Part shown: in pieces, positions 10,501-31,751 of the stretch
How the letters are laid out: the number at the start of each line of letters is the position of its first letter
Position numbering within the stretch: the first letter of the stretch is position 1
Assembly: GCA_017941355.1 (NCBI GenBank)
Contig: JAGAWN010000005.1
Span: 1 to 32,753 of the forward strand
DNA: 32,753 nucleotides
Source of the DNA: Ruminiclostridium sp.
Lineage (GTDB): Bacteria > Bacillota > Clostridia > Oscillospirales > Ruminococcaceae
Direction: 5' to 3'
Translations under genes and position numbers: made by a program
The notes under the pieces: model-generated
The model's input: only the letters and a program-made list of their open reading frames with translations
What the model was told of the DNA's origin: nothing
Databases searched by the model: none

Positions 10501-13500
10501 TCAGTTTTGAATGTTCGGCTATGAATTGCTCATAATCTCTTACATCGACCCAGTTGACACCAATTTCAGCTTTTATATCTCCGGCTTCTATGCGTTCGGG
10601 CAACACCCCGTTCAAGGCTTCAATGTTTTTGTTTATTTTCTGCAGTATCTCCGGATTGTCAATAAATTTTGCTTTTGCAAATTCCGCTTCATTGAGCTTG
10701 TCACGGATATTTCCCGAAAGATATTCCGCGGCGTCCTCATAGGCATTATCCATATTCCCGATCTCAGCTTTCATCGGGTCAAGATATATCAGCTCAGCCT
10801 GTTCGAGTTGACTTGTAACATCTGCTTTGCTCATACCCGTCAGATTTGACATATACTCTATATCAACTCGTCCTTTAAGATCTAAACTTATCTGTAATGC
10901 TTCTTCGGGACTATCTGCGCGGCTTACCTCAATTTCCGGCTTTATTGTCCTTTTGAAAAAGATTTCAGCTTTTGTGACCTCTTTTGTTTCGGGATTTATG
11001 TTTTCAAGAGATTTAAGCAGATTATAATAATCATCTTCTGCAAACACTTTGGAATTGCTTTTATCCGATATTGTACCGTATTTTCTTACGAAACGGTCAT
11101 ATACGGTATTCAGCTCCCTCTGCCTTGCTTCCAGTTCCGCATCCGAACAGCCGTTTGTTTGAGCTGTGATCAAGTCACGGAGCGTTTCCCGCACATTTAT
11201 AAGTCCTTGAACACGTTCTGTCTGTTGCGGAGTCAATTCTATTCTTCTTAAATTATCGTTTTCACGGTAGAAGATCTCATCATTAATAGATGTAAATGTG
11301 AAATTGCGAACGTCCGAAGGGGCAGGAATAACTCCGTTGTCTGCATTTTGCTTCTCCGTTCTCCTCTGAACAGCAAACTGCGCTTTTAAATTTGAAACCG
11401 CCTTTTCAAGCTGCTCTTTTAAATCTGCTCCGGGTAATGGAGAACAAGTTTCTTCCGGTCCGAAGCGTCCTGATTTCATCTCCATTTTTCCGAGTATCAT
11501 TTCGGGGTGATCCACAAAATATTGATTTATCGTAATACCTTCAGCATTTTCGGCAGTATATACCCAATCCGGCTTTTCGACAAGGGTCTTATGACTGTTT
11601 TTCTGTAGGAAGATAATATCCGATGTGACCTCTGTGCCGACCTCATTAAAAGCACTATTCGGCAAGCGAATTGCACCTATAAGGTCAGCCTTTCCCGCAA
11701 GATACTCTCTGAACGCAGGAGACTTCTTGTCAAGTGTGCCTTTGGACGTTACAAATGCCACTATACCGCCGTCTGCTACCTTATCCAGTGATTTAGCAAA
11801 GAAATAATCGTGAATAAGGAAGTTGTGCTTGTTGTATTCAGGATCGTGCAGACTGTAGTTATCAAAAGGGATATTTCCAATAGCAACATCAAATGTATCG
11901 TTTTCGATCTTTTTCTGTTCAAATCCTGTAATGGATATATCCGCATTGGGATATAGCTGTTTGGCTATTCTTCCGCTTATGCTGTCAAGCTCTACACCTG
12001 TCAGTTTGGATTTATCTCTGATGCTGTCGGGCATTTTTCCATAGAAATTACCTGTTCCCATGGACGGATCAAGTATCTTGCCGCCATTGAAGCCGAAATT
12101 CTCCAAAGCTTTGTACATGGTATCAATAACGACCGGAGGTGTGTAGAAACTTGTCAGCACTGATGAACGAGCCGCTTCATATTCTTCGGGAGTAAGCAGA
12201 CTTTTGAGACGGGTGTACTCATCGCTCCACGCTGAATTGTTTCCTTCAAAAGCGAGTCTGATACCTCCCCAACCCGCATACTTTGACAATATTGCCTGTT
12301 CTTCGGGAGTTGCTGAACGGTTTTCGCTTTCGATTTTCTTCAATGTCAGTATTGCGGCGAAATTGTTCTCAAACCGTGCTTTCATTCCTGTCTCGTATGC
12401 AAAACTTTCGGGAATATGGTAATCTGTTGATTTGCTTTCTTCCGCTGCGGCTAAACTCTCAAAATTCTGCTGTTCATAGTTTGATGACGGATTTTGTTCT
12501 TTTGCGGCGGCTCTCTCTATTTCTTCAACATCTCTCATCACCTGTTGAATAAACGGCGACTGATCCGGCGGTGTTTCTTCCAATGATTTACGGATTTTTC
12601 CCGTATCAATATCACTGAAATCATCTTCTTCATTTCTGCTATGCTCATCTTGAGCAACACCAAGAGCTTGTATATCAAGCTGTCTCTGTTGTTCCAAGCG
12701 GTCAGCAGTATTGTTCTGCTGAATTTGTCTGAAATAATTAATAACGCCGCCGTATCCGTCACCTATATCCTGTCGTTCGGTTATAGAAGCTCCATTAGGA
12801 AGATTGACCGTGAATTTGACTTTATCATAGCCTTTGAAACGTGAAAACTCGTCCTGCACATCGCTTTCGTACCATGCACTTCTTGAACCGTACTTTTCTA
12901 CAGCTTTTGCTTCTCCGGCGACTCTCTCATTGTCAGCTTCGGACATTATCCGGTCAAATTCATAAACAGAATATGTTTTGCCGTCCTCAAAAGCATTGCT
13001 TTCGCTCCACTCACAAGTGATTGTGATGTTTTCGTCAGCCGAAAAAGAAGAATTTGTGCTATATGTAGCACGACTATTTTTGTCCAAAGTTTTGTTCGTG
13101 AACCCTATATCTTTTGACGGTTTATTTCTTTTGTTTAAATAAAAATCTTTATCAAAACTCTTGACAATTGCAAATAAATCTGATATACTTATATGTGAGC
13201 CGTTGAGAACCGAATGGTCTAGCGATTTATTCGTGAACCCTATGTTCTTCAGCGGCTCTGTTTTTATTTCTCTTATGTTATATAATCTCTTTTGTGTATC
13301 ATGATTTATCCCATATTCTTCTACTGAAAGTTTTGCTAAATGTGGCTCATTATTTATAACACACGGGCAATATAATTTATGCATGAATGCAGTTGTAAAA
13401 GCCTTTGTGTTATTATTTTTCTCAGATAACACAGTATCCAGCAATATGCTGTTTTCAATCAACTCGTCTAAATGATACAGCAAATCAAAAGTGGAGTCGT

Positions 13501-16500
13501 TGTGAGAATTTGCATATCGAACAGAATCCTCCAATCCTCTGCGACTTACCTGTATTTCCCAATTTGTATCCGTATTTGTAAATACTCCTCTTTCGATAGT
13601 CTGATTTTTTATGTCATTACGAACTCCTTTGAAGTCTTTATTATGAGCCTCAATACGGATAATATTAACCTGCGCTTGTTCATTTTCCCGCCAATCCCCG
13701 TTCTGCGCTCTGTAATATGGTGATTTCACCCATAAGTCTTTAGTAAGACGCTCATTCCATTTTTGAGTTATTTCTATTTCCTCATCGGTGAAATTTAGAA
13801 TGCTCTTTCTCGGCTCAAGCGTTCTTAACAGATTAATGTCAGCTTCGTTAACAGATGTGTCTATGATATTTGTGCTATATGTAGCACGATTTATGTTTCT
13901 CTCGTTATCATCAAGCGAAACAAGTTCATCAAATTCAAGATTTCCGAGCGCTGCATTCATTTCTTCAAGATCGTTGAACAAGTCTTCGCGAACGATTTTG
14001 CCGTCGTATTCCGTTACTATTCGGAAACTTTCAAGGTCTGCATAAACTTCAATTTCCAATTCGGTCTGTTCGTCCGTTGTATAAGCAAGTCCTACCCTGT
14101 CCATATTGGAAAAGTTTGCGGGTTCTCCAAACTCTTTGTCGCAATACTCATTTATAAGGCGCATCGCTTTATCCATTGCGTCCTCTTTTATCACCTGTTC
14201 TTTCTCAAGAAGAAATTCGGGCATTTCGGGAAAACCGAAGCGGTCAACATAATATGCGGTTTGATTTGTTTCGTTGCCCACTACAATCACATCGCTCATC
14301 GACAATGAATGCCCGTTGTAATTATCGGGAAGCTGAAATCCGTTTAGGTTATTCCAAATTTCAGCAAGACGTTCTTCAGCCGATGTGCCTTTCAGATCGT
14401 CCCACTTTCCCTCATATACAAGGTCATAATCATCTATTGTCAGATGATCGTCTTTGTTGGACTCGAAGCTCTCAAATCGGTTATAATGATACTTGTCGCC
14501 CTCTTTAAGCTGATATATACGAAAAAAAGCAGGACTTTGTTCCTGCTCGATTGTGCTATATGTAGCACTTTTTTCTTTTTCCGCAAGGTATTTTTCCGCT
14601 TTAGGAAGATAACTGCCGAGCGTTCCGGTCTCCTCTGCTCTTATAGGGTTTATATCAACAGAAATGCCACCAATAGAGAACGGCTGCCCATGAAGTATGT
14701 TGAACAAGGCGTCCTCTTTAAGTTCAGAATTTACCTCGATAACAACATCTATATCCGAGCTTTCGTTTTCAATTCCTCGGCTGCGTGAGCCTGTCACAGC
14801 GATGTTGACAATGTTTGCTTCGATATTGTTTTCTTTGAGTACGCTTTCGGCATATTCTTTAACCGCTTTCTCAACATCTTCAGCACTGTTACCGTCAATA
14901 CTATGAAACCGCTCTTTTGTTTCTTCCTTAAATGCGGAAATTTGTATCTCCTCGTATTCTTTCCGAAAATAGTTCAGATAACTGTCAAAAAGCTCCTTAT
15001 ACGGTACATCTTTGGAATAACCTTCAAAATATCCGTAAGATAAATGCAAATGGTTTTCTCTGATTCGTTGGCTTACAGCTATGTCAGAATTGTCGTCCTT
15101 GCGAACATAGGCACGTTCGCCCCTGCCGTAAAGCGCTAAAGCAAATTCCTTTGAAACATCTTCGCCGCTGCGCATCCGGCGAATAAGCTCATACAGCTTT
15201 GTTTCTGTCAATCCATTTCCGTAAACTGCTTTATCGGACGGTTGGTGCTTGTCTATATACTCCTCATCAAAGAACCGATAGCCTAAACTTTCTATTTCAT
15301 CCCATGCAAGTGTGGACTTTGCAAGAACAGGGACTATATCAAGGTTATAAAGGTAGCTGACGTTGCTTCGATGTTTATTAAGAAGCTGTAACGTATCATC
15401 CCCATATATTAAAGAAATATAGTGATTCATTTCTTCTTCATTTGGAAATTCTTTGATCTCCGGCGAATTATCATCTTCCCATTCGCGTATAGCCATTGAT
15501 CTATAATCGAAGTCAACATCTGTACTACCGATTTCAAGTCTAACAGTAACAGGGACTCCTTGCGAAGTCCCTGTATCATTCGTTATTCTCTTACTTGCAG
15601 TACGATCTCCCGCATTATCTCTGACGAGTTTTCCATCTGCATTGTCTTGTAATACTTTGCTTTCTCCCAAAAGTTCGTCGGAACCGGATATTTTTTCTGA
15701 TACTCTTCCTCCAGTGCTATCAGCCTTTCCTGCGCTTCTTTCTCTATCAGCCGAGGAATTATCGTCCAACGAAGATTGAGCTGAAGCTCCAGTATCTTCT
15801 CCGGGTGCTGTTCCTGCATAAACTCCTGCCACCGCTGCCCGTAAATTCCTATCGGTTCCTTCATCAGCTCGATGTACTCCTTGTTCTCCGTCACGGGGAG
15901 ATCGGGATTGTAAGTCCATGTCTCCGTATCCAGTCTGTACGTTATTCCGAGCTTCTCGTCCGTCTGCGTTTCGGGAAAGTACTTGTTCGCTGTTTCGCAG
16001 AAGTACATTGTCATTCCGTTCTCTGTTTTGGTTGCGATCTCTTTCATTTCTATCACTCCTTTGGTTTTGGATCTCGTTCATCTTACGCTCAAATGTAAGC
16101 AGAACTGATTTTGCAGACATTTGAACGTATGACATAAGTTTAAGAAAATCGGACTTTGTTTTACACATATCAACGGCAGATAAATCAGCTTCTATTTCCT
16201 TATTGCCGCGATATTTATATTCACTTTCAGTTGTACAACGAGAGACAACTATCGACTTTGCCATGCTCAGCAAGGACTTCCGGAATGCGTCGCGATTTTC
16301 CGGAGTAATACCGAGAGCTGCTGCCGCATCGCCCTCTCGTTCCTGTACATATTTGAATGTGAGCTTATCTATGCAGTCGGACAGATTCTTGACAGTATCG
16401 GGAATTTCTGAATTTATTCCCTGCACGAGAGCGTCAGATACATCGCGGTTAAACCGCCATAAAGCAGGAGTACGATCACCGATTGTTTGCGAAATATCAA

Positions 16501-16771
16501 AATAACAGATCATTTTTCCGCTTGCGTCTATTACCGTCTTACTTCTTTGTCCGGCTTCCACCTGCCTTCCGATAGCTCTCCATCCGTCATATGTGGAAAT
16601 CATTGTTGCATCGTCTTTTTGAGCAAATATCTGCATTGCCCCACTTGCGGACAGCTTATAAATATTGGACGAGAAATGAAGGAATTTCTGTAATTCATTT
16701 CTATCCGAATATAATCTGTCAGAAATCTGTTGCGCAATTTGCAGAGCTTCTGTTTTTCTGCTATTGTTCAT
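7571..16771 (-). CDS. Giant ArdC-N / NTase / YodL / N6-methylase / SNF2-helicase polyvalent protein
   Basis: 3066 residues. The ATG at 16771 is chosen because AGGAGG lies six bases before it; an in-frame GTG further up lacks a site. Order of domains: ArdC-N-like ssDNA-binding (about 10-130, FAQKDDATMISTYDGWRAIGR); a disordered Arg/Asp/Ser/Gly-rich linker (235-410); a nucleotidyltransferase (GSRSRG near 662, SDIDV, third Asp in VDINPI); YodL (about 745-850, GHSLSMSDVIVV); an LPD28-like domain (870-950); an LPD3-like region (about 975-1230); LPD25-like (CEWSESNAFEDGK); an N6-adenine methylase (DPSMGTGNFYG, IGNIPF near 1634); and an SNF2 helicase with GAGKS near 2254, DEAH near 2413 and QNGRILRRGNQ near 2752, ending in coiled coil. 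Methylase-helicase fusions of this type resemble phage P1 DarB, so protection of incoming DNA is a fair inference. Three in-frame palindromes separate domains. Confidence 0.9.
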   Translation of the reverse strand: MNNSRKTEALQIAQQISDRLYSDRNELQKFLHFSSNIYKLSASGAMQIFAQKDDATMISTYDGWRAIGRQVEAGQRSKTVIDASGKMICYFDISQTIGDRTPALWRFNRDVSDALVQGINSEIPDTVKNLSDCIDKLTFKYVQEREGDAAAALGITPENRDAFRKSLLSMAKSIVVSRCTTESEYKYRGNKEIEADLSAVDMCKTKSDFLKLMSYVQMSAKSVLLTFERKMNEIQNQRSDRNERDRNQNRERNDNVLLRNSEQVLSRNADGREARNNVQTGYGDMDLQSRSPRDGEQGVHRADEGTDRNLRAAVAGVYAGTAPGEDTGASAQSSLDDNSSADRERSAGKADSTGGRVSEKISGSDELLGESKVLQDNADGKLVRDNAGDRTASKRITNDTGTSQGVPVTVRLEIGSTDVDFDYRSMAIREWEDDNSPEIKEFPNEEEMNHYISLIYGDDTLQLLNKHRSNVSYLYNLDIVPVLAKSTLAWDEIESLGYRFFDEEYIDKHQPSDKAVYGNGLTETKLYELIRRMRSGEDVSKEFALALYGRGERAYVRKDDNSDIAVSQRIRENHLHLSYGYFEGYSKDVPYKELFDSYLNYFRKEYEEIQISAFKEETKERFHSIDGNSAEDVEKAVKEYAESVLKENNIEANIVNIAVTGSRSRGIENESSDIDVVIEVNSELKEDALFNILHGQPFSIGGISVDINPIRAEETGTLGSYLPKAEKYLAEKEKSATYSTIEQEQSPAFFRIYQLKEGDKYHYNRFESFESNKDDHLTIDDYDLVYEGKWDDLKGTSAEERLAEIWNNLNGFQLPDNYNGHSLSMSDVIVVGNETNQTAYYVDRFGFPEMPEFLLEKEQVIKEDAMDKAMRLINEYCDKEFGEPANFSNMDRVGLAYTTDEQTELEIEVYADLESFRIVTEYDGKIVREDLFNDLEEMNAALGNLEFDELVSLDDNERNINRATYSTNIIDTSVNEADINLLRTLEPRKSILNFTDEEIEITQKWNERLTKDLWVKSPYYRAQNGDWRENEQAQVNIIRIEAHNKDFKGVRNDIKNQTIERGVFTNTDTNWEIQVSRRGLEDSVRYANSHNDSTFDLLYHLDELIENSILLDTVLSEKNNNTKAFTTAFMHKLYCPCVINNEPHLAKLSVEEYGINHDTQKRLYNIREIKTEPLKNIGFTNKSLDHSVLNGSHISISDLFAIVKSFDKDFYLNKRNKPSKDIGFTNKTLDKNSRATYSTNSSFSADENITITCEWSESNAFEDGKTYSVYEFDRIMSEADNERVAGEAKAVEKYGSRSAWYESDVQDEFSRFKGYDKVKFTVNLPNGASITERQDIGDGYGGVINYFRQIQQNNTADRLEQQRQLDIQALGVAQDEHSRNEEDDFSDIDTGKIRKSLEETPPDQSPFIQQVMRDVEEIERAAAKEQNPSSNYEQQNFESLAAAEESKSTDYHIPESFAYETGMKARFENNFAAILTLKKIESENRSATPEEQAILSKYAGWGGIRLAFEGNNSAWSDEYTRLKSLLTPEEYEAARSSVLTSFYTPPVVIDTMYKALENFGFNGGKILDPSMGTGNFYGKMPDSIRDKSKLTGVELDSISGRIAKQLYPNADISITGFEQKKIENDTFDVAIGNIPFDNYSLHDPEYNKHNFLIHDYFFAKSLDKVADGGIVAFVTSKGTLDKKSPAFREYLAGKADLIGAIRLPNSAFNEVGTEVTSDIIFLQKNSHKTLVEKPDWVYTAENAEGITINQYFVDHPEMILGKMEMKSGRFGPEETCSPLPGADLKEQLEKAVSNLKAQFAVQRRTEKQNADNGVIPAPSDVRNFTFTSINDEIFYRENDNLRRIELTPQQTERVQGLINVRETLRDLITAQTNGCSDAELEARQRELNTVYDRFVRKYGTISDKSNSKVFAEDDYYNLLKSLENINPETKEVTKAEIFFKRTIKPEIEVSRADSPEEALQISLDLKGRVDIEYMSNLTGMSKADVTSQLEQAELIYLDPMKAEIGNMDNAYEDAAEYLSGNIRDKLNEAEFAKAKFIDNPEILQKINKNIEALNGVLPERIEAGDIKAEIGVNWVDVRDYEQFIAEHSKLMSDLISRYAPLRRTINGEYKMQNKNSFNGNVGVTSVAGTSRINSLKIFENLLNKRDVVVKDLKMVNGEERYVINQKETELAQEKARQMKDAFQKWIFATPERREKYVERYNVLFNSIRGREYDGSKQSFPGMSPDIELKPHQKDAVMRAKLGGNTLLAHVVGAGKSFEMVAATMEKKRLGLINKACMVVPKHLVGQTALEWQRLYPNAHILTATEKDFTKDNRNKFIGRCVTGNYDAVIMSYEQFEKIPMSLEYRMSFLQREVDEIVAGINEAKSNRDNMTVKDLERQRKQIQKKIQKLMEGGKTKDTALNFEQLGFDYLVVDEAHNYKNGLVVTKMHNVSGVQCSPAQKSEDILMKTQYINEMTGYKGLLFATGTPVSNSMVEFYTMQKYLRPDLLQKSGLQTFDDWASNFGEVVSQLEMKPAGDGFRTKKRFAKFNNLPELMQQYREFADIKTADMLDLPTPKMIGGKPQTIVAKPDEFQQAYIQQLAARSERIHNGSVDPSEDNMLRVTHEARLLGLDSRAINPEADDRPDSKVNLCIDNIMRIYNETSEQKGVQVVFCDIAVHADEEAGKWSVYDNIKQELIKRGMPESEICFAGDAKNQTERNEMYSQLRSGTKRLVIASTQKMGTGANIQDRLAALHHLDIPWKPSDLEQQNGRILRRGNQFEEVGIYHYVTEGTFDAYMLSIITAKQRFISQTMTGKTPARTCSDVDEMVLNYSEMQAIASGDPRIKEKIELDGDVAKLKMLEAEHYNNLYKLQDMIPKYEMNISVDEELLKITKADLAQKQANAAKMPKDEFAGMVINGVKFDERVKTGAALRPIVQKAFIDGETQMIGSYGGFKIGIEKLKYVDPAPRFFLQSETGQKYFSSDAELASDTGNVQRIENVFKTAIEKRIEQTEARLTETRNNLEEARNADKTPFARAAELAEKSARLEQLNLELNVDKPDDVIAADDEDLDSEEKAPEIEEHRNKPRR
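13056..13071. repeat. Palindrome copy A, in frame between LPD3-like and LPD25-like domains
   Basis: GTGCTATATGTAGCAC, a perfect GTGCTA/TAGCAC inverted repeat. On the coding strand it encodes RATYSTN, directly before the LPD25-like domain of the giant protein (about residue 1237). Confidence 0.85.
13161..13266 (+). ncRNA. Plus-strand small-RNA unit, copy 3, antisense inside the giant gene
   Basis: TTGACA (13161-13166), 17-nt spacer, TATACT (13184-13189). The predicted start at about 13196-13197 coincides with GAGCCGTTGAG (13197-13207), which pairs over 11 positions with CTTCAGCGGCTC (to 13258, two G-U pairs) and is followed after two bases by TTTTT. The interior shares CGATTT and CCCTATG with the other two copies but is otherwise different. 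It lies opposite codons for the LPD3-like region. The plan (promoter, closing stem at +1, terminator, about 70 nt) is the same as in the units at 6772 and 7431. Confidence 0.5.
13872..13887. repeat. Palindrome copy B, in frame between LPD28-like and LPD3-like domains
   Basis: GTGCTATATGTAGCAC, identical to copy A. It encodes NRATYSTN near residue 965 of the giant protein, between the end of the LPD28-like domain and the next domain. Confidence 0.85.
14553..14568. repeat. Palindrome copy C, in frame between nucleotidyltransferase and YodL domains
   Basis: GTGCTATATGTAGCAC, identical to copies A and B. It encodes KSATYST near residue 738, in the linker after the nucleotidyltransferase domain and a few residues before the YodL domain. 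Confidence 0.85.
15583..16047 (-). CDS. tnpV: TnpV-family protein, nested in another frame of the giant gene
   Basis: 154 residues, read on the same strand as the giant gene but in the +1 frame. The ATG at 16047 has an ideal AAAGGAG eight bases upstream; a GTG at 16056 is too close to it. The product (LGITYRLDTETWTYNPDLP, KEPIGIYGQRWQEF, EKEAQERLIALEEEYQKK, then a C-terminal EIMREIVLQ helix) has the length and pattern of TnpV, a small transposon-associated protein of clostridial elements whose function is unknown. In the host frame this stretch encodes only a low-complexity Arg/Asp/Ser/Gly/Ala linker with no fold visible, which suggests that the TnpV frame is the constrained one. The stop at 15583 lies well inside the giant gene. 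Expression would come from the giant gene's mRNA. Confidence 0.72.
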   Translation of the reverse strand: MKEIATKTENGMTMYFCETANKYFPETQTDEKLGITYRLDTETWTYNPDLPVTENKEYIELMKEPIGIYGQRWQEFMQEQHPEKILELQLNLRWTIIPRLIEKEAQERLIALEEEYQKKYPVPTNFWEKAKYYKTMQMENSSEIMREIVLQVRE

Positions 16772-16785
16772 TACCATCCTCCTAT

Positions 16786-16814
16786 ATATTAGCACATTAA
16801 ACCGCTAAAGTCAA
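16786..16814 (-). promoter_or_regulatory. Promoter of the giant helicase gene
   Basis: On the minus strand TTGACT (16809-16814), a 17-nt spacer and TAATAT (16786-16791) with extended TGC lie just before the ribosome site AGGAGG. It sits immediately beyond the terminator of the preceding gene, so this gene begins a separate transcription unit with a very short leader. Confidence 0.75.
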
Positions 16815-16832
16815 TACTTTTTTAGAAAAAAT

Positions 16833-16885: not shown

Positions 16886-19800
16886 TCACTGCTCTAAAAA
16901 TATAGTTAATTCTATCGGTATTGCATATCCGTCATTTATATTGCTGTTGCGTGTCCATTTGTCGCCAAGGATATATGTCACTCCATCGACCTTCAATCCG
17001 TCAAATGGAACTCTGATGATCTGCGTTCCAAAAACTGTTGCAGTTTCGTTGCTTTCAGACGCTTGCCCAATATTGGGATACTTGTTCGTGTTATCTACGA
17101 TCACAAAGGAAACCGTGTGAACCATAAGACTTTCTCCGTCATATCCAACAATGCTTCCGGTTACATTTCCGTTCATCACAGAATTGGATATATAGCATCT
17201 TGTTATATATGGACTGTTTGCGCCACCGGCAGAACACATTATGCCGCCTATATTCTGAGCATTATTCAGAACAATGTCGCGTACTGCCGTATCGGATACG
17301 CTACAGCCTATATACTGGAAAGTATGATTTTTTCGTTCTATCGGGAAGCCCGATCCGTCAGCCACAACACCACCAAGATTTATGATGTTATAAACTCCGT
17401 CCTTCACACATCCCTCTGCACTATATCCGGTTATTGCACAACCCGATATTTCGGCTGCTCCTCCGGCAATACCTCCCATATACTCGATTGTTGCACCTTC
17501 ACGGGCGTACATATAACAATTTGTGCTATATGTATCACGAATATATCCTCCATATCCTATAATTGATCCGACATATTTTATATCAGAACGGACTTCAAAA
17601 TTGCTTCCTATCACTGCACATTTTTCGATAATTGAGTTTCCGCTTGCAACAGTGTTTGCGTCTTTTCCAAAAGTAGTAGTAACAACTTTGTTAGCTATTG
17701 CTCCAATACACTCACTTTCGCGATCGACGGTTATAGCCGCATTAGATATAACAAGTTTTCTGATTCGGCTGCTTACAAGCTCATCGAACAAACCGCCTTT
17801 GCTATGCAAATTGGAAATCACAAAACCTCCGCCATTGTAGATAAAATTGCTGTAACTGCTATTATCTACAGATTCATTGGGTATCTTAACAGGAATGCTT
17901 GTATGAAGATAACTGTCGGGCATTTGAATATCCGAGATTTGTTCGTAATATCCCTGCACTCCTTTTTCAGACATGAGCTTGATATGCTCCCAAGAGTTTA
18001 TAAGGTAAGGATACTCTTTTGTGCCGTTCCCACCGTAGTAAATATTGCGCACACGATATACTGTTGTCGGCTTTGTAAATTCAGCAATGGTTCCGCCGTA
18101 ATATTCGAGCATTCCGTTTTGTCTGCTGCTCCAACCGTAAGTATATCCGCTTTTATGAGTTTTTTCGTTATCCACTTCGGGAAGAAGTACCGTTGCTATT
18201 CCGTTCATATTCAAAGGCACTTTAATAATTGCGTTAGGCTTGTTTAAATAAGACATATCAATGGTAATATCGATGTATGTTGCTTCTTCCCACACAGCAT
18301 ACAAAGTTGTATCGCCGCGGACGGTCATGTGCTGAATTATGTCACCGTAACCGTCATATAGTGTCCAACCTGACACAATGTATCCATCTTTGACGATTCC
18401 GAAATCATCACGGCAGTTAAGCTCCTCTCCGATAGTATAAGTGAATGACGACTCCTGCCCGTCAGCCATAAGCGTGATTTTAGCTTGAGCTTCTTCTGCC
18501 CACACAGCATATAAGGTTATATCTTTGTTCGGCATAAATAAGGTTTTTACTGCGCTACGGGCATTTGGCTTTGTATTCCAACCTACAAGAACAAGCTCAC
18601 CGTTTTCAAGTCCCTCGGTCGGTAAAGGGACTTCTTCATTGACTTTTACTTTGTACGGAACGACAAGACCGAGTCCGCCATTACTGTCGTAAGTCACAGT
18701 ATATTCCTTTGCTTCCCATACAGCATATAGAATAACATCTCTGTCAGGCATAGAATAGCTGTACAGGGGATATCTACCGTCAGCAGTCTCTGACCAACCC
18801 ACAAAATCATAGCCATCGCGCGTATATCCTTCTGTCGGCAGTTTTACATTAAAGCCTTCTGTAATAGTCAGCGTTTCAATTTCACCTTCGCCGCCATTGA
18901 CGTTAAAAGACAGCTTATAGGATCCTTTTGATGATGAACTGCCGCCGGAATATGACGAAGCAGGAGCTGTTGTTTCTGTAACTTCGGGGATATAGGGATA
19001 TTCTACCCATACATCGGCACCGTCTGATTTAACTATGATCGTACCCTCTTTATCTGTTCTATGAATATCTGCTCCGACACTGGTTAATCTTTCTATCACT
19101 GTATCGGACGGGTGTCCGTATTCATTTTCAACTCCAACAGAAATTACTGCAATCTTAGGCGAAACCGTATTAATAAATGCTTCAACAGATGATGTATCAC
19201 TGCCGTGATGCGATACTTTTAGCACTTCGGTATCAGACACGTCTATATCAGTTTTTAGAACGTTGTATTCAGCTACAGATTCAATATCTCCGGTAAAGAG
19301 ATATGAAGTATCGCCATAACTGAGCTTTATTACAACAGAATAGTCGTTAAGCTCATCGTAACTTATGCCCTCTGAAGGAGATAGTATTTCAAAATTGCAT
19401 ACATCGGAAACGCTGTACTTTACTCCCTTTTGAGCATTCTTTACTGTAATTCCTTTTTCCGCAACCGATGTTGTAAATTCGGTATATATTTCAGTAACAG
19501 GTATCAGCTCTTCGGGAACTTCGGGTATAATCAGTTCACCGATATCAAATGTACTTAACACTTTTGCCATGCCGCCTATGTGGTCTGCATGAGGATGAGT
19601 TGCCACAACATAATCTATATCGCTAACATTCAAGCTATACAGATATTCGATTACCTGTTCCCCTGTTTCTCCTGCGTCTATCAGCAATGATGTATCATTC
19701 GGTAATTCAGCATATATGCTGTCCCCCTGTCCTACATCTATGAAATGTACGGAAATATCATCAAGCTCTATGACTTCCGGCTGCTGTTCTGTAGTAACAT

Positions 19801-20395
19801 TTGATGACGTGACTTCAAAAGTCTCAGAAGCTGTCGCCGCTTCGCTTTCGCTAAAAGCTGTGGTAGTTTCGGAAGTAACAGCTTCGGTTAAAACAGGTAT
19901 AGACTCTCTTTCCGAAACAGGTGTTTCTGTTTCTTCGACCGGGATCTCGGTTTTCGGCTTGCTTTTGCCTATGACGGAAAAAACTACTATAAGTGCAATA
20001 GCACCTCCGACAATTGCTAACAGCGGAATATATTGTTTTATATCAAAGCCGCCCTTTTTCTTTTCCTTTGAATTTCCTACAGCCATATTGTCGATAATAT
20101 ATTGGTTCTCATCTATGACCGTTAATTTTCCTTCACTTTCAAGGTTACAGATTATATCGTATGTTATTCCTCCCTGCACCGCTCCGTCCGGCACCTCATA
20201 AGTTATGTACTGCACATTTACAACAGGAGTTTCTGTTTCTTTTACAAAATCCTTGTATTCTTCTGTGGAAACAAGGTTTTTTTCTATAAATATCGGTTTA
20301 TCGCCGTCGTATTCATCCGCTTTCGGAACTAAAACAAGCTCCGTTGTTTCATCGGTATAAGCTGTGAGCTTTACCTTGAATATCATCATACCCAT
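16886..20395 (-). CDS. Membrane-anchored ComEC-like metallo-beta-lactamase-fold protein with surface repeats
   Basis: 1169 residues from the ATG at 20395, which follows AAAGGA by eight bases and lies just after the topB stop. An N-terminal cytoplasmic part of about 120 residues precedes one membrane segment (about 123-143, LLAIVGGAIALIVVFSVIG). After a Ser/Thr/Glu-rich stalk comes a metallo-beta-lactamase fold of the ComEC/Rec2 type: VHFIDVGQGDS near 216, the metal site THPHADHIGG at about 266-275, LFTGDIE, and VSHHGSD. Beyond about residue 490 are three or four InlB-B/Flg_new repeats (GYDFVGWSETADG, DVILYAVWEAKEYTVTYDSN) and then a Gly-rich beta-helix-like region. The enzyme part probably sits outside the cell; its substrate (nucleic acid, as in ComEC, or a phosphodiester) is not shown. 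One palindrome lies in the C-terminal region. Confidence 0.8.
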   Translation of the reverse strand: MGMMIFKVKLTAYTDETTELVLVPKADEYDGDKPIFIEKNLVSTEEYKDFVKETETPVVNVQYITYEVPDGAVQGGITYDIICNLESEGKLTVIDENQYIIDNMAVGNSKEKKKGGFDIKQYIPLLAIVGGAIALIVVFSVIGKSKPKTEIPVEETETPVSERESIPVLTEAVTSETTTAFSESEAATASETFEVTSSNVTTEQQPEVIELDDISVHFIDVGQGDSIYAELPNDTSLLIDAGETGEQVIEYLYSLNVSDIDYVVATHPHADHIGGMAKVLSTFDIGELIIPEVPEELIPVTEIYTEFTTSVAEKGITVKNAQKGVKYSVSDVCNFEILSPSEGISYDELNDYSVVIKLSYGDTSYLFTGDIESVAEYNVLKTDIDVSDTEVLKVSHHGSDTSSVEAFINTVSPKIAVISVGVENEYGHPSDTVIERLTSVGADIHRTDKEGTIIVKSDGADVWVEYPYIPEVTETTAPASSYSGGSSSSKGSYKLSFNVNGGEGEIETLTITEGFNVKLPTEGYTRDGYDFVGWSETADGRYPLYSYSMPDRDVILYAVWEAKEYTVTYDSNGGLGLVVPYKVKVNEEVPLPTEGLENGELVLVGWNTKPNARSAVKTLFMPNKDITLYAVWAEEAQAKITLMADGQESSFTYTIGEELNCRDDFGIVKDGYIVSGWTLYDGYGDIIQHMTVRGDTTLYAVWEEATYIDITIDMSYLNKPNAIIKVPLNMNGIATVLLPEVDNEKTHKSGYTYGWSSRQNGMLEYYGGTIAEFTKPTTVYRVRNIYYGGNGTKEYPYLINSWEHIKLMSEKGVQGYYEQISDIQMPDSYLHTSIPVKIPNESVDNSSYSNFIYNGGGFVISNLHSKGGLFDELVSSRIRKLVISNAAITVDRESECIGAIANKVVTTTFGKDANTVASGNSIIEKCAVIGSNFEVRSDIKYVGSIIGYGGYIRDTYSTNCYMYAREGATIEYMGGIAGGAAEISGCAITGYSAEGCVKDGVYNIINLGGVVADGSGFPIERKNHTFQYIGCSVSDTAVRDIVLNNAQNIGGIMCSAGGANSPYITRCYISNSVMNGNVTGSIVGYDGESLMVHTVSFVIVDNTNKYPNIGQASESNETATVFGTQIIRVPFDGLKVDGVTYILGDKWTRNSNINDGYAIPIELTIFLEQ
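17523..17538. repeat. Palindrome copy D, in the surface protein gene
   Basis: GTGCTATATGTATCAC, one base off the perfect palindrome. It encodes RDTYSTN, in the same frame as copies A-C, within the beta-helix-like C-terminal part. Confidence 0.7.
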
Positions 20396-20400
20396 TTTAA

Positions 20401-25587: not shown

Positions 25588-25612
25588 TGAAACACCTCCG
25601 TTTTCCTTTGCT

Positions 25613-25647
25613 GAAAAAGAAAAAGGCTGCTCAGCAGAACAGCCTTT
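25613..25647 (-). terminator. Terminator of the toxin-antitoxin cassette
   Basis: On the minus strand AAAGGCTG and CAGCCTTT (25640-25647 and 25622-25629) form an eight-pair stem with a 10-nt loop and a TTTTTC tail. It lies about 30 nt before the ribosome site of the next gene with no room for a promoter, so some read-through must feed the downstream transfer genes. Confidence 0.78.
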
Positions 25648-25663
25648 GTGATATATATAGCAC
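25648..25663. repeat. Palindrome copy E, left edge of the toxin-antitoxin cassette
   Basis: GTGATATATATAGCAC within TTGTG...CACAA, one arm base changed. It lies between the toxin stop and the terminator hairpin. With copy F it brackets the cassette. Confidence 0.75.
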
Positions 25664-25676
25664 AATCATACTCCTA

Positions 25677-26676
25677 TTATCTGTGCTTGTGCTTTAGGTT
25701 TGGACTTGTATTTGATACACTGCTTTTCTTGTGATCTTGTTCCTTTTCTCGCGGCAAATCACGTTGCAACGCCTTACCGCGAGTGGGTTGACTTCTTTCT
25801 GAAAAGAATAACTGCGCTGTATCTGAAACAGCTAAGTCATTCTTTTTGGCTATGGACGCAACAATATCAACATTAAAATACTGTTTTGTAAATCGGTCGA
25901 TCTCTTCGGCGTGTCTCTTTTCCATAAGCAGCTGAGTGCGCTTGCCTATCTCGCAGAATTGATCTAACTCATGCTGTGACCATCTGCCGTTAAACACACT
26001 TGAAATAGCTTTGTCGGCAGTCATATCCTGATGTACATCGCTATCATATAAACAACAACCTTCTCGATTGTACATCACAATTTTATCAAACATATTGCTT
26101 TCTTGAAGCTGTCTAAGATTGCCGGGAATGCTTTTTACGATCAGATCGTGTGCTTCCTTTGATGTTGCTCTGGGTGTTTTACCTTCAGCTATCATGTCCT
26201 CATATCGCATTATCGTACTCAGATATGATATTTGTGGTTTTACCGCCATGAGTGCCAGCGTAACACTGTAACCGCTCCTCTTGAACTCATTACAGGTTTT
26301 CAACGGTACTTGTGCAGTGCGCAGAGTTCCCTCGACAAGAACATTGTATTTCTCTTTTTTCAGTCTTTCAACAAGGGTTTCGGTCATTTGCCCTGAAAAC
26401 TTTCCTGTATAATCTACACTGTTCTTGCCGTACTTTTCCTGCAATTTCTGAAAATCGGGGTGAAGTTCACGAAACTCGTCACCGTTTATGACAATCAGAT
26501 TGTTATTACACAACTTCGACATTATTTTCTGTAGCCCTGTTTTCCCTGCTCCGGGTTGTCCCCCCCAATATAAAAGCTTTCGGCTTTGTTTCCGGTGTCA
26601 AAGTTTCTATGAACTCTTGATATGTTTTTTTGAGTGCGAATTCAAACGCTTCTTTTGAAAAATCACCATCAGTCAT
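25677..26676 (-). pseudogene. pezT: PezT/zeta toxin kinase gene, frameshifted at a G7 run
   Basis: Zeta toxins phosphorylate UDP-N-acetylglucosamine and block wall synthesis. The frame from the ATG at 26676 (MTDGDFSKEAFEFAL ... KPKAFILGG) breaks at seven G residues (26560-26566) in the middle of the Walker A loop. With six G it would read ILGGQPGAGKTGLQKIMSK and continue into the downstream frame (IVINGDEFRELHP, VLVEGTLRTAQVPLKT, SYLSTIMRYEDM, YDSDVHQDM), which closely follows PezT to a C-terminal basic tail at 25677. As written, the upstream frame stops after about 57 residues and the downstream frame lacks its P-loop, so no active toxin is made. It may be a true mutation, a slippage-prone on/off tract, or a sequencing error. 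The ATG overlaps the antitoxin gene by eight bases. Confidence 0.85.
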
Positions 26677-26932
26677 TTACTTCTATTACCTCATCGATGT
26701 AGTCGTTAGCCAAAGAAAGCTTTGCACTGATTTTTTCCAAATCTTCCATAGTAAAATCAGGATTTTGAATGAGCGAACGACTTATCGAACCGACCATGCT
26801 CAAAAGAACTTCAAGCGGATTTGACGGGTCATTATCTATATTCTTTATCCGCATATAATTGATGATCTTAGCCTTAACACTTGCCGCAACTTCCCTTAAG
26901 ACTTCTTCTTTTGCAGTGATAAAATAATCCAT
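26669..26932 (-). CDS. Antitoxin candidate, epsilon-like helical protein
   Basis: 87 residues; the ATG at 26932 follows GGAGG by seven bases. It is a small acidic all-helical protein (FITAKEEVLREVAASVKAKI, FTMEDLEKISAKLSLANDY) of the size of the epsilon antitoxin, which blocks the ATP site of zeta. Sequence similarity to epsilon or to the C-terminal half of PezA is not clear by eye. The assignment rests on its place between a regulator and the toxin and on the 8-bp overlap with the toxin start. Confidence 0.6.
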   Translation of the reverse strand: MDYFITAKEEVLREVAASVKAKIINYMRIKNIDNDPSNPLEVLLSMVGSISRSLIQNPDFTMEDLEKISAKLSLANDYIDEVIEVND

Positions 26933-26957
26933 ATCTGTTCCTCCGTATTTCATAAAA

Positions 26958-27173
26958 TCATTCTTTGGAGCGCAGGAATTCCAGTTCGAGCTTTGCGCTT
27001 ATCAGCGATGTTATATAGGGAGCGGGCGTTCTCTCGCCCGTTTCCCAATTGCTGATAGTACGCTTCGGAATGCCTGTGATCTCTGACAGCTGTACCTGTG
27101 TAATGCCATAATGCAGACGTAACTCCTTAATCGACAAATCGTTGCCGTCCCGCACTTTTTCATTTATGTGCAT
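26958..27173 (-). CDS. XRE-family regulator of the toxin-antitoxin operon
   Basis: 71 residues, a single helix-turn-helix domain (LRLHYGITQVQLSEITGIPK, RTISNWETGERTP). AGGAGGG lies seven bases before the ATG. It is the first gene after a consensus promoter, ahead of the antitoxin and toxin. The trio mirrors the omega-epsilon-zeta plan (regulator, antitoxin, toxin), with an XRE protein in place of omega, or a PezA split into two genes. Autorepression of its own promoter is likely. Confidence 0.85.
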   Translation of the reverse strand: MHINEKVRDGNDLSIKELRLHYGITQVQLSEITGIPKRTISNWETGERTPAPYITSLISAKLELEFLRSKE

Positions 27174-27194
27174 ATCATGCCCTCCTGCTTTTAT

Positions 27195-27223
27195 ATTATA
27201 GCACTCATTGGGTTACTTGTCAA
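27195..27223 (-). promoter_or_regulatory. Consensus promoter of the toxin-antitoxin operon
   Basis: TTGACA (27218-27223 on the minus strand), a 17-nt spacer and TATAAT (27195-27200) with extended TGC. A fully consensus promoter would need tight repression, fitting an operon led by an XRE regulator. Confidence 0.88.
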
Positions 27224-27271
27224 GAGATTATATATCAATTATGGTTTATTGTGTCACTGATATTTCAGATT

Positions 27272-27287
27272 GTGCTACATATATCAC
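27272..27287. repeat. Palindrome copy F, right edge of the toxin-antitoxin cassette
   Basis: GTGCTACATATATCAC within TTGTG...CACAA. It lies four bases beyond the virB4 stop and before the cassette promoter, the counterpart of copy E. Confidence 0.75.
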
Positions 27288-27291
27288 AATT

Positions 27292-29766
27292 CTATTCTTC
27301 CCCGAACTTCGTAGTCATTAGCTTATACAGCTTTGTATCAGTCGGAAACTCATCCTTAAAAGGAATACAGCCGTTTGCACCAAAATACATAAGCCCTGAA
27401 CCCGAGGGAGAACCTACAACATATTGCATCTGCGTATCCGGGATCTTCAAAAGCCTTGCAAGCTGCTCACGATCTGTTGCCGACTGATTAAGCATATATA
27501 TAAATTCCGAGTTTGCAAGCATTGTTCTCGCCGTAGGCGAACGCAGAAGATCTTCAACGTTTTGTGTGATTCCGGTCGGCACGCCGCCCCATTTTCTTGC
27601 ACGTTTGTAAAGCTCAAACAGGAAGTTTGCTGTTTCCTCGTTTGAAAACAGTAAATAAATTTCGTCCATATAGATGTATGTTCGTCTGCCTATCTGCCTG
27701 TTCTGAACGATTCTGTCCCAAAGGTTTTCCATGACGATCATCATTCCGAGAGCCTTTAATGACTTTCCTAAATCTTTAAGATCATAAACGACTACTCTCT
27801 TGTCTGTCTTAACATTCGACGGATAGCTGAAAGTGTTCATTGATCCTTCGACATACAGCGAAAGCGCATTATAAAGCGGAATTGCGCTGTCATACTGATG
27901 AGTGTACTTTTCAAGAGCCTTGAAATAGTCGCCAAGTGTAGGCATCTCTGTTTTAGCGCCCATAATAAGTGGAGTATAAATATCTTTGTCGCACATATCT
28001 ATAATAGAAGCCTGTTCGGAATCTATCGCAGTCGGAGCCATTATTGTTTGGAAGAATGACTTCATAAAGCTGAATTTAGTTTTAATCGGATCATCGTCCG
28101 CTTCAAGATTGACCTCCATAGGATTTAAGTGCGAATCTGATTTTTCGGAAATAAACACGACTTCGCCGCCCAATGCTCTTGCAAGATTGGTATATTCGCG
28201 TTCGGGATCCACGATTATAATATCTGCATCTGTAGCCAAGAAAACATTTACCATTTCACGCTTTGCAGAGAAGCTCTTTCCTGAACCGGGTGAGCCGAGT
28301 ATAAAGCCATTACAGTTTTTAAGAGTAGTTTTGTCGAATATTATCATGTTATTCGATATCTGATTAAGTCCGTAGTAAACGCCCCCCGCTTGCGTCAGTT
28401 CGCGTGACTTAAACGGCATAAATACCGCTGTACTTTCCGTTGTCAGCGTCCTGCGTACTTGTAACTGACAATTGCCGACCGGCAATGTTGAAGCCATTAC
28501 TTCTTCCTGTTGAAAGGTTGCTTTTGCAAGTACAGTTATATGCTTAGCGAATATTCCTTCGATAATGGAGCTTTGCGCTTCCAGTTCCTCATAGCTGTCC
28601 GCTATAAGCATTACACAAATATTTGTGAGAAACATCTTCTGATTTTTGCTCATAAGATCGTCAAGAAGTTTCTGCGCCTGTTCCATTGACTGCTTGTGAT
28701 CGTCGGATATAACATCTGTTCCGAAAATACCCCTTGCCGCTGCTTTACGCTCTTTTTCTATCTTATTTGCTCTCATTGCTGTAAGCTGCCGCTTAACTAT
28801 TTTTATAGCTTCATCGGGAGCTACCGGGGCTATGTTCTGAGTTATAATAAGATTAAGATTTGACTCCGCTACATCAGTAAGAATATCATCCTGCATGGAG
28901 GAAGGAAGTTGCCGAACAAAGAATGTTCTTGCGTATTTATCATCAAACATGAAGTAATCATTCTTAAACTCAAGATAATCCGGACAGCAAAGCGACTTTT
29001 CCGCCTGTCTCATAAATTCGCCTTGTGTGAACTCACGGACATACCTGTTTGCCCCTCTGAATACATCTGTCAGTATTCTTATGCGCTCATTTGCCGTAAG
29101 CGTTTTAACGCTTGTACCAAGCTTCTGAAATGTTGTTTTCAGATGTATCTCAATAGAATTGAATTGCTGCATAGCAAGTTCAAGGGATATCGCCGAAACT
29201 GTTACTGTTATGTACTTGCGGCGAAGAATTCCGTTTTGTCCCTCACGCATTCTGCTTTTTAGCATATCATTGTATTCCTCACGAAAAATGTCATATTCAT
29301 CGTTTTTCATAGGAAGTAGCACCTTTTTGGCAAAATCCTGTTTATTGTACTTGTTGTTATGAATAGTAATCTGAATATCAACGGTAGTATCAAACCCATT
29401 AAGGATATCAGCATACGCAAGAAATAACTGCTCCTGCTCCTCTCCGGCTGCGGAAGCATAGTTAATATCAGCATACTCATATGTCTTGCTGTATTTATTG
29501 CGTCCGTCATTGTACTCCTCTACAAGCATGATATATTTATCAACCACAGCTACATAAGGCATTGTGTCCTGCACAGTTTTAGATACACGGCGAACAGGAG
29601 CGCTTACTTTGGATTTCTTTGATTTCGTTCTCGCTTTAGCTTTTTTGGCGGTACGGAGTTTGTCCTTTTCCTTCGCGGAAAGCTTTTGTTCCTGAGTCCT
29701 AATTTCACCGCTTTCAGACGTTAGAACTGTAGTAACCTCATTTTTTTCTTCTTTTATTCCGAACAT
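27292..29766 (-). CDS. virB4: VirB4-type conjugation ATPase
   Basis: 824 residues. A basic N-terminal tail (Lys-rich, 28-60) is followed by the VirB4 N-terminal domain and an AAA+ motor with Walker A GSPGSGKSF at 491-499 (before it NCNGFIL) and Walker B TYIYMDEIYLLF near 690. VIVDPEREYTNLA-type and ITQNVEDLL-type motifs of VirB4/TraE are also present. It is the essential energiser of the type IV channel on the inner face of the membrane. The start overlaps the PrgI gene by 29 bases; AGGAG lies 13 bases upstream, somewhat far, so coupling with PrgI translation is likely. Confidence 0.95.
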   Translation of the reverse strand: MFGIKEEKNEVTTVLTSESGEIRTQEQKLSAKEKDKLRTAKKAKARTKSKKSKVSAPVRRVSKTVQDTMPYVAVVDKYIMLVEEYNDGRNKYSKTYEYADINYASAAGEEQEQLFLAYADILNGFDTTVDIQITIHNNKYNKQDFAKKVLLPMKNDEYDIFREEYNDMLKSRMREGQNGILRRKYITVTVSAISLELAMQQFNSIEIHLKTTFQKLGTSVKTLTANERIRILTDVFRGANRYVREFTQGEFMRQAEKSLCCPDYLEFKNDYFMFDDKYARTFFVRQLPSSMQDDILTDVAESNLNLIITQNIAPVAPDEAIKIVKRQLTAMRANKIEKERKAAARGIFGTDVISDDHKQSMEQAQKLLDDLMSKNQKMFLTNICVMLIADSYEELEAQSSIIEGIFAKHITVLAKATFQQEEVMASTLPVGNCQLQVRRTLTTESTAVFMPFKSRELTQAGGVYYGLNQISNNMIIFDKTTLKNCNGFILGSPGSGKSFSAKREMVNVFLATDADIIIVDPEREYTNLARALGGEVVFISEKSDSHLNPMEVNLEADDDPIKTKFSFMKSFFQTIMAPTAIDSEQASIIDMCDKDIYTPLIMGAKTEMPTLGDYFKALEKYTHQYDSAIPLYNALSLYVEGSMNTFSYPSNVKTDKRVVVYDLKDLGKSLKALGMMIVMENLWDRIVQNRQIGRRTYIYMDEIYLLFSNEETANFLFELYKRARKWGGVPTGITQNVEDLLRSPTARTMLANSEFIYMLNQSATDREQLARLLKIPDTQMQYVVGSPSGSGLMYFGANGCIPFKDEFPTDTKLYKLMTTKFGEE

Positions 29767-30157
29767 CTTTTTTACTATGCTCCTTTCTTTTTTCTTCCGC
29801 TTCTGCCTTTTGCAGTGCTATATTTTCTTTGATTAACATCTCTCTGCTTTCCCAAAATGTGTTCAGCTCTCGATATGGGCGCTTTTGCGGTTCTGTATAA
29901 AACCTCAGTACACATCTTGCAAATGTTTCAAAGTTCATTCCGTGGTACGAAAACCATCCGAACGCCATAATTGGAATTGCTATCAGAATAACTATCCAAG
30001 AAAGTATATCTTCGGATATTATTTCCCTACCGAAAATAAAAAGAGGAACACATATTGCAAGAGCTGCTGCAAGAGAGAAGAATTTTCTCATTGTGAGTCC
30101 GAACAGGAATTTCTCCTTATATTCGGTTATTTCTTTCGGTATGCGTATTTCTATCAT
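29738..30157 (-). CDS. prgI: PrgI family (VirB3-like) membrane protein
   Basis: 139 residues. It begins MIEIRIPKEITEYKEKFLFG, the typical PrgI opening, with two membrane helices at about 26-43 and 53-70, then FETFARCVLRFYTEPQKRPY and a basic tail. AGGAGG lies seven bases before the ATG. PrgI proteins take the VirB3 place next to VirB4 in Gram-positive type IV systems, and the 29-bp overlap with virB4 fits this. Confidence 0.9.
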   Translation of the reverse strand: MIEIRIPKEITEYKEKFLFGLTMRKFFSLAAALAICVPLFIFGREIISEDILSWIVILIAIPIMAFGWFSYHGMNFETFARCVLRFYTEPQKRPYRELNTFWESREMLIKENIALQKAEAEEKRKEHSKKDVRNKRRKK

Positions 30158-30169
30158 ATACGTTCCTCC

Positions 30170-31129: not shown

Positions 31130-31154
31130 ATTATGACCTCCTTTTCAAAAGATA

Positions 31155-31175
31155 GCGGCGGGATAGCCCCGCCGC
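31155..31175 (-). terminator. GC-rich hairpin after the pilin-like gene
   Basis: GCGGCGGG pairs with CCCGCCGC (31155-31162, 31168-31175; 5-nt loop), followed on the minus strand by TATCTTTT. The U-run is weak, so it probably lowers rather than stops transcription of the channel genes, leaving the first gene most abundant, or it protects the upstream mRNA end. Confidence 0.6.
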
Positions 31176-31187
31176 ATTGATAGTAGT

Positions 31188-31652
31188 TTAAGCCGCAAAT
31201 GTGATTAAATGTGAAATCATATCTACAGCTCCTGCAGTTCCTCCATCCATGCCGGTGAAAAGACCTAATGCCTGTGTAACAGCAAACACCACAAAGCCCG
31301 ATGCAAGTGTCATAAGACCACGAGTTTTAGCTTCTGCATCATCATTTTTTATTGCAAGAGCAAACATTACAGCGCCTACAAAGCCCACAACGAGTCCTAT
31401 ACGCCCGATCCAAGTTGCGAAAAACTCAATGACCTTATTGAATTCAGCTTCTCCGGCATTGCCAAAGTCAGATCCGCCGCCCTCGGCTGCAGCAAACGCA
31501 TTAACCGCAGACAGCATAATCATTGTGAACATTACATTGACCGTAAGGACTCCTTTCTGAATCTTGCTGTACACCCTGCTTAACTTTGTTCTTCCGGGCT
31601 TTTTGTTCTCCGTATTCTCAGCAACGGAAATAGCTGTTTTTGTGTTTTCCAT
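31188..31652 (-). CDS. Maff2-type small membrane protein, VirB2-like pilin candidate
   Basis: 154 residues from the ATG at 31652, eight bases after AAAGGAGG. The N-terminal 40 residues are basic and precede a first hydrophobic segment (VNVMFTMIMLSAVNAFAAA) that ends in a possible signal-peptidase site (AFA-A). The mature part has two further helices (IGRIGLVVGFVGAVMFALAI and LASGFVVFAVTQALGLF) separated by the short polar KNDDAEAKTRG, the pattern of Maff2 and VirB2/TrbC proteins. It lies first in the channel gene run with its own promoter and a trailing hairpin, which suits a highly expressed pilin. The long leader is unusual for Maff2, so the name is tentative. Confidence 0.72.
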   Translation of the reverse strand: MENTKTAISVAENTENKKPGRTKLSRVYSKIQKGVLTVNVMFTMIMLSAVNAFAAAEGGGSDFGNAGEAEFNKVIEFFATWIGRIGLVVGFVGAVMFALAIKNDDAEAKTRGLMTLASGFVVFAVTQALGLFTGMDGGTAGAVDMISHLITFAA

Positions 31653-31680
31653 AATGGAAACCTCCTTTAAAAATATTGAT

Positions 31681-31709
31681 TTATTAAATCCCAGCCGGGA
31701 TTTTGACAA
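31681..31709 (-). promoter_or_regulatory. Promoter of the pilin-like gene with an inverted repeat in its spacer
   Basis: On the minus strand TTGTCA (31704-31709), a 17-nt spacer and TAATAA (31681-31686). The spacer holds the inverted repeat AATCCC/GGGATT, a suitable place for an operator. It lies between the virD4 terminator and the pilin-like gene. Confidence 0.55.
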
Positions 31710-31710
31710 T

Positions 31711-31751
31711 AAAAATGCTCCTGAATTGTGCTATATGTAGCACATAGGAGC
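31711..31751 (-). terminator. virD4 terminator whose loop is palindrome copy G
   Basis: GCTCCT (31746-31751 on the minus strand) pairs with AGGAGC (31717-31722) and is followed by ATTTTT. The loop region contains the perfect palindrome GTGCTATATGTAGCAC (31728-31743), which extends the stem. Thus a dispersed repeat has become part of a terminator. Confidence 0.75.

Follow-up and report, generated by a model that had tools for sequence, protein, structure and literature searches.

Introduction

Several systems are known in which a ParB-family protein has dispersed binding sites. The phage-plasmid N15, a linear plasmid prophage, has few such sites. These sop-type sites were cited as dispersed inverted-repeat centromere sites in PMC5016525, and the passage of that source on RK2 described KorB as a ParB-family protein of a conjugative element with scattered short inverted repeats (OB). 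According to the passage of PMC11790492 on this system, the OB sites of RK2, a Gram-negative plasmid, are 16 bp long and lie near and far from promoters. KorB forms a CTP clamp there for long-range silencing, with KorA as co-repressor. Noc, a ParB relative, has short palindromes (NBS) spread widely over the genome, as outlined in the relevant part of PMC7383237, which also quoted the canonical chromosomal parS consensus TGTTTCACGTGAAACA. An integrative and conjugative element (ICE) may also encode such a protein: in the passage of PMC12704722 on BisD, a ParB-like CTPase of Pseudomonas ICEs (ICEclc) was reported to regulate gene expression, and this passage did not mention ICE-wide dispersed sites. 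Here we analysed a stretch of 32,753 nucleotides from Ruminiclostridium sp. (assembly GCA_017941355.1, contig JAGAWN010000005.1), referred to as the window, which carried a dispersed palindrome and part of an ICE.

We propose that the ParB encoded by the same ICE, near its ParA gene, uses the palindromes as parS-like binding sites, and sequence comparison gave this reading a probability of roughly 0.87. The site set was restricted to the element, co-varied with ParB, was depleted from coding sequence and, where coding, lay mostly at domain seams. The system resembled those above in part. Unlike KorB/OB, it belonged to an integrated element, had in-frame sites in protein linkers and used a site sequence that depended on lineage. 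Unlike the chromosomal Noc, which has no tie to mobile elements, it was accompanied by a ParA gene. It shared a related half-site with canonical parS, but the arms were 4 bp apart and the sites lay across the ICE and inside linkers. In the literature searched, from which most subscription journals were missing and which covered GntR motifs, KorB, Noc, N15, SGI1 and ICEclc BisD, parS sets spanning such ICEs were not found.

Results

Distribution of the palindromes

The window was scanned with TTGTGCTATATGTAGCACAA at up to 3 mismatches and compared with 100 shuffles. Seven places with 12 strand matches were found, where 0.01 was expected, and none of the shuffles reached 12. A first-pass annotation of the window had described seven near-identical copies of a dispersed 20-bp palindrome. 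The scan bore this out at the same seven places, although each of its coordinates was 2 bp too high. The palindrome had the form TGTGCTA-N4-TAGCACA, and its centre was found in both orientations in the contig scan. A palindrome search with six-base arms was discarded as too noisy. The sites were as follows.

13054..13073: parS-like site, coding (RATYST, minus strand), about 6 amino acids before LPD25; the same linker has a site in G350 and G739
13870..13889: parS-like site, coding (RATYST), ending 1 amino acid before the LPD3-type homology block and 80 amino acids before the Pfam LPD3 match
14551..14570: parS-like site, coding (SATYST), about 9 amino acids before the Pfam YodL match
17521..17540: parS-like site, coding (RDTYST), in the MBL-fold/repeat protein
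25646..25665: parS-like site between the zeta toxin stop and a terminator ahead of the next gene
27270..27289: parS-like site right after the VirB4-like stop, upstream of the HTH/epsilon/zeta genes
31726..31745: parS-like site within a hairpin that resembles a terminator, following the TraG-like gene
C195, 952, 1590, 3026, 3446 and 6142: palindromes from the contig scan
C179, 743, 1185 and 2963: palindromes from the contig scan

The eight palindromes outside the window lay on two contigs of the same genome, giving 15 on the element over the window (C211), C195 and C179. All genomes used were drafts, and genes were called from the length of open reading frames and homology. At up to 1 mismatch, the whole 4.5-Mb genome held no place off these three contigs (14 of 14 listed places; another scan counted 15). 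A looser pattern with 2 mismatches gave single matches on C3, C40, C280 and C296, which was about the control level (2 and 6 for the reversed control).

Since the three contigs had shared sites, gene order and tRNA ends, we infer that they form one ICE of about 45 kb at tRNA-Ser, from which pieces between the contigs may be missing. The window encoded VirB4, a TraG-like protein, PrgI, a topoisomerase, a Mob_Pre-type relaxase and a giant polyvalent protein. Genes for ParA, a GntR regulator and a ParB truncated by the contig end lay on C179, which also had a tyrosine integrase (by eye). C195 had a tRNA-Ser gene, and visual inspection of C179 showed a copy of the tRNA 3' end past the integrase. 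No close relative of this ICE was found in plasmids and viral contigs (queried with the GntR protein or an 801-amino-acid stretch of the giant protein), in phages (giant-protein query) or in genome contigs (GntR query). The scan of viral contigs for the palindrome gave 4 contigs with one place each.

ParB and ParA of the element

ParB-family proteins combine a helix-turn-helix with a nucleotide-binding domain, which is N-terminal and bears a GxRR-type motif. The ICE protein was placed in this family, and GHRR was invariant across 6 aligned rows. Its profile matches were Noc (E 1.9e-9), Spo0J (4.9e-7) and ParB (6e-7), and Noc chains were its best PDB matches; KorB matched it weakly (E 0.028). 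ParA was encoded on the same element (C179 3179-3967, AAA_31 E 2.6e-35), about 2.5 kb from parB. A ParA homologue was found in all 14 elements checked. Complete copies of this type of ParB were present in G350 and G739. The site consensuses resembled TGTTTCACGTGAAACA as quoted in PMC7383237. The putative sites of the ParB of this ICE type and of the G650-type ParB were TTGTGCTAYATRTAGCACAA and AATTCCCCANTGGGGAATT, respectively.

We infer from these comparisons that ParB would bind the sites and slide from them as a clamp. Each of the about 15 sites over about 45 kb would load a clamp that spreads to its neighbours, and the coated element might then be partitioned as an excised circle, have its genes silenced in a KorB-like manner, or both. 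Autoregulation or KorB-like silencing would agree with the sites in the gaps upstream of ParB, GntR, the HTH gene and genes of C195, and partition would agree with the presence of ParA.

Co-variation of the palindrome with ParB

The 16-bp core was searched in 396 family genomes at up to 1 mismatch. Thirteen matched: the window's own genome (G000) with 15 copies, G350 with 19, G739 with 24, G776 with two and nine with one. A ParB search in 396 family genomes gave 17 positives, which included G000, G350 and G739 and did not include G776. All three genomes with more than two copies therefore carried the window-type ParB. Compared with the window ICE, the ICE of G350 had a ParA with 51.5% and a ParB with 52.8% identity. 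G650 and G035 had a related backbone and a ParB with less than 20% identity, and carried ATTCCCCANTGGGGAAT instead.

The palindrome followed ParB rather than the conjugation backbone. In 8 ICEs having VirB4, ParB and a motif, the partial Mantel correlation of motif with ParB given VirB4 was r 0.71 (p 0.0007), compared with r 0.19 (p 0.17) for motif with VirB4 given ParB; the topoisomerase added nothing. Outside this set were G540, G599, G623 and G638, which have VirB4 and ParB and are motif-less, and G531, which has a weak VirB4 match. G642 was the telling case. Its ParB was 57-61% identical to those of G650 and G035 and its VirB4 just 32-33%, and it had four perfect copies of TTCGCCANTGGCGAA, a one-base-per-arm variant of the G650/G035 palindrome. 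Over 24 elements, motif similarity was correlated with ParB identity (Mantel r 0.63, 0 of 10000 permutations as high). This set included the below-threshold G739C21, G216a, G404 and G257, and was without G561, G497, G577 and G634; G216b was also absent from it, as the filter had missed its ParB.

ParB loci in other genomes

Searching 394 genomes of the order for ParB yielded 16 additional places. Thirteen were analysed; G257:C89, G315:C47 and G277:C11 were left out as short contigs, and short pieces of G777, G487, G652 and G521 were unscored. A region was called positive when it had at least 4 copies spread over at least 3 kb. This rule was tuned on the earlier set and was fixed before the new loci were viewed. 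Dispersed palindromes were found at 9/13 new loci and in 15/23 earlier ParB regions. None of 8 chromosomal pieces and 7 other regions was positive, and a ParB profile search of all 15 found no ParB. Four of these seven other regions were about 20 kb and had been chosen for single or double palindrome matches. The difference between 24/36 and 0/15 was significant by Fisher's test (p 5e-6; 2e-5 with two doubtful regions taken as misses), and so was the new set alone (p 0.0001 against 0/15; 0.002 against 0/8). Six of the nine new positives (G182, G194, G181, G431, G430 and G216b) had GTGTYCAANTTGRACAC or a version of it that leaves one position open in each arm. G357 was close to GTGTYCAANTTGRACAC, and G381a and G427 differed more. 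All nine consensuses resembled the parS consensus as it is quoted in PMC7383237.

Some regions held fewer or differently arranged copies. G531 had two parS-like copies, near parB only, and G623 had one perfect palindrome beside parB. CAGGGCT in G599, AGACTTC in G642 and the sites of G561 were rejected as tandem arrays.

Several results weighed against the parS interpretation. ParB regions under the threshold made up 8/23 of the earlier and 4/13 of the new set, and among the 15 earlier positives G577 and G634 were doubtful and G497 was partly a tandem array. G540, G599, G623 and G638, which have VirB4 and ParB, had no dispersed palindrome by the rule. In the ICE-like region of G599 (C20), 50 kb held no TGTGCTA-type site within 2 mismatches, although its ParB was 53% identical to that of the window ICE, as close as that of G350 (about 52-53%). 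The sites of G481 were at least 14 kb from parB. Among the 15 negatives, G557, G541, the window genome's own C261, G776 and G743 were tested for this VirB4 and only G557 had it, so that ICEs without ParB were hardly sampled. The correlation with the motif was almost equal for ParA and ParB (r 0.87 and 0.89), and another protein in step with ParA and ParB could still be the reader of the motif. The ICE's own ParB was incomplete at the contig end, and its matches to Pfam ParB_N (E 0.0014) and TIGR00180 (1.2e-7) were under the curated cut-offs.

Placement of the sites

The genes that contain or adjoin the window sites were as follows.

7571..16795, minus strand: giant polyvalent protein of 3074 amino acids (NTP_transf, YodL, LPD3, LPD25, Eco57I-like, SNF2/helicase), with three linker sites
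16889-20440, minus strand: MBL-fold/Listeria-Bacteroides-repeat protein, with one in-frame site
25677..27173, minus strand: zeta/epsilon/HTH cassette, with two bordering sites; absent at the equivalent place of G350
27292..29766, minus strand: VirB4-like conjugation ATPase (CD1110 family), the backbone marker in the partial Mantel test

The placement reported by the first-pass annotation was confirmed. Three copies lay in the giant protein before YodL, the LPD3-like and the LPD25-like region, at about 9, 80 and about 6 amino acids, and frame reading showed that the four coding copies shared one frame and encoded ATYST or DTYST. A fifth, in a putative open reading frame of 66 amino acids on C179, was in the same frame, and all five read [RS][AD]TYST. 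Two copies, 25646 and 27270, flanked the toxin-antitoxin cassette (zeta/epsilon/HTH). The copy at 31726, described as sitting in a terminator loop, was within a terminator-like hairpin of -17.8 kcal/mol, and 0 of 200 shuffles were as good.

The sites were depleted from coding sequence. Only 5/15 were wholly coding (three of them in the giant protein, the others in the MBL/repeat protein and in the C179 frame), whereas genes called by hand predicted 88% (p 1.2e-6). Another site, which ends up about 20 bp ahead of the GntR start, was open in the TYST frame and was called coding by the automatic rule; given the ribosome-binding site behind it, it was assigned to the leader. The annotation had also placed the palindromes at domain seams. 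In five giant proteins, 9/12 coding sites were within 20 amino acids of the edge of a homology block (p 0.0002 relative to randomly chosen positions), with some of the 12 being orthologous and not independent and the block ends entered by hand. The same placement was seen in other ICEs with other palindromes.

In-frame palindromes were also found inside parB in G561, G703 and G255. The ParB of G561 (G561:C27 20310-20898) had ten tandem in-frame repeats of 21 amino acids, each with K-V-[DN]-T-S-S-N-F from its own palindrome, which looked like a centromere-like array within the parB gene. The ParB proteins of G703 and G255 had two copies each. Linker palindromes are therefore not peculiar to the giant protein.

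This placement could be understood if ParB set the site sequence and copies persisted only where 20 fixed bases did no harm. Such places would be intergenic gaps, terminators and, for copies that are read in frame, the linkers between protein domains. The palindromes would mark domain seams because they are kept only there, and survival only in positions tolerant of 20 fixed bases is probably the rule.

Alternative explanations

ParB loading and domain exchange might operate together. In this combination, ParB loaded at 4 to 21 sites would coat gut ICEs and related elements, giving them a chromosome-like packaging of their own, and the in-frame sites would double as joints for the exchange of domains and cassettes. 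We considered it unlikely. If it were true, centromere sites would influence how polyvalent proteins evolve by modules. Two border cases bear on it. In G350, the next gene came immediately after VirB4 (by eye), and its ICE had no tblastn match to zeta or epsilon. The comparison with an element without the cassette, as the annotation had proposed, thus gave a segment that is extra in the window, with window palindromes at its edges. In addition, G650 diverged from G035 exactly at a site (amino acid 627). Both cases fit tolerated linkers or occasional exchange at sites. Linker tolerance was taken as the simpler cause of seam placement than exchange, and the sites may still have a secondary role as recombination joints.

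The first-pass annotation had read the palindromes as the footprint or target of an insertion or recombination process that adds domains and cassettes, or as a mobile in-frame palindromic element. Its observation of seams and cassette borders stood, and the cause it gave was not supported. That cause agreed with the seam placement of coding sites, with their common frame, and with cassette and module differences between ICEs that terminate near palindromes. However, the palindrome differed in sequence between elements, and these differences followed ParB. Equivalent places held palindromes of other sequence: the window, G650 and G035 had one after TraG, and G350, G739, G650 and G035 had one before the methylase module. 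The LPD3-type block was preceded in the window and in G650 by each element's own, different palindrome; that of G650 lay about 15 bp before the block, probably ahead of the gene start. G623 had an LPD3-type block yet no dispersed palindrome. A YodL-like block was present in 6/6 giants (two near-identical) and came directly after a palindrome only in the window protein, leaving 5/6 without an adjacent site.

In other polyvalent proteins, where the annotation had suggested looking for the ATYST linker, SATYST/RATYST was present in the giants of G350 and G739. It was located in the linker before the methylase module, where the window protein had NPSSNY (by eye). Because the flanks form one continuous homology block, the site was gained or lost there without domain change. 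The G350 site replaced a like-sized stretch of the window protein (one linker, by eye). G650 and G035 had N-S-P-V-G in this linker; the right-hand module was common to all, and the left flank to the window and G350. A mobile in-frame palindromic element of the Rickettsia kind is extra sequence compared with empty homologues, and one sequence spreads between hosts. The palindromes did not behave as one sequence independent of other genes, since they differed between lineages and tracked ParB. These results made an insertion or mobile-element origin very improbable.

The palindromes might instead be the operator of the GntR/YtrA-type regulator of the element (C179 787-1164), acting as an ICE-wide repressor. 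This was our initial hypothesis. The 126-amino-acid C179 protein is a GntR member, sites lie about 20 bp ahead of its start and about the same distance past its stop, and the palindrome fits the YtrA motif form given in the pertinent passage of PMC4494728, a long palindrome with GT and AC distant from the centre. The same passage described YtrA regulons as mostly single-site. The hypothesis was abandoned because G350 had the sites without the regulator: no GntR homologue was found in its 40-kb ICE stretch, which runs off the contig end (best tblastn E 0.49), and G350 was not among the matches of the GntR search at E<=1e-9 in 394 genomes. Regulator and operator were thus not found together there. 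Distant GntR relatives (26-32% identity) without palindrome in G009, G014 and G030 were weak evidence at such distance. We now hold out little prospect for an operator.

Action mainly as RNA, through hairpins, terminators or an RNA-binding protein, agreed with the strong terminator-like hairpin that includes 31726 but was hardly credible, since among the three sites folded 27270 folded weakly (z -1.3) and 25646 was unpaired with itself in the best fold, the centre occurred in both orientations and the half-sites resembled parS.

Significance

With the parS interpretation, an unexplained repeat becomes a testable ParB-parS pair. The results suggested that, in many of the ParB-bearing elements of this order, parS sets span the whole element and co-evolve in sequence with ParB. 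They would provide a natural series of protein-DNA specificity switches in which both sites and proteins are known, and partition specificity and element borders could be read from sequence alone. In addition, a simple rule would account for short repeats at domain seams, namely that linkers and gaps tolerate fixed DNA words.

Other features of the element

Near the contig end (32614-32753), the TraG-like gene was interrupted by a group II intron piece on the minus strand (Rfam RF00029, 32614-32698), which perhaps caused the assembly break at the window end. In the zeta toxin frame (25680-26522, minus strand), the Pfam Zeta_toxin match began only at profile position 43, and a C run lay just upstream. 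Beside the ICE end, C195 carried several similar units at about 3470-5250, with a TTGACA/TATAAT-like promoter in each as well as paired repeats that might fold into hairpins (by eye); they matched no Rfam family at gathering score. A 92-nt repeat with 86% identity was found at 6771-6862 and 7430-7521, likewise with no Rfam family at gathering score, one copy being within the primase-like gene and the other upstream. The protein of this gene (4197-7397, minus strand) combined MuF-C, GAF, GGDEF (E 5.8e-41), DUF3991 and Toprim, which is a diguanylate cyclase domain within a primase-like polyvalent protein.

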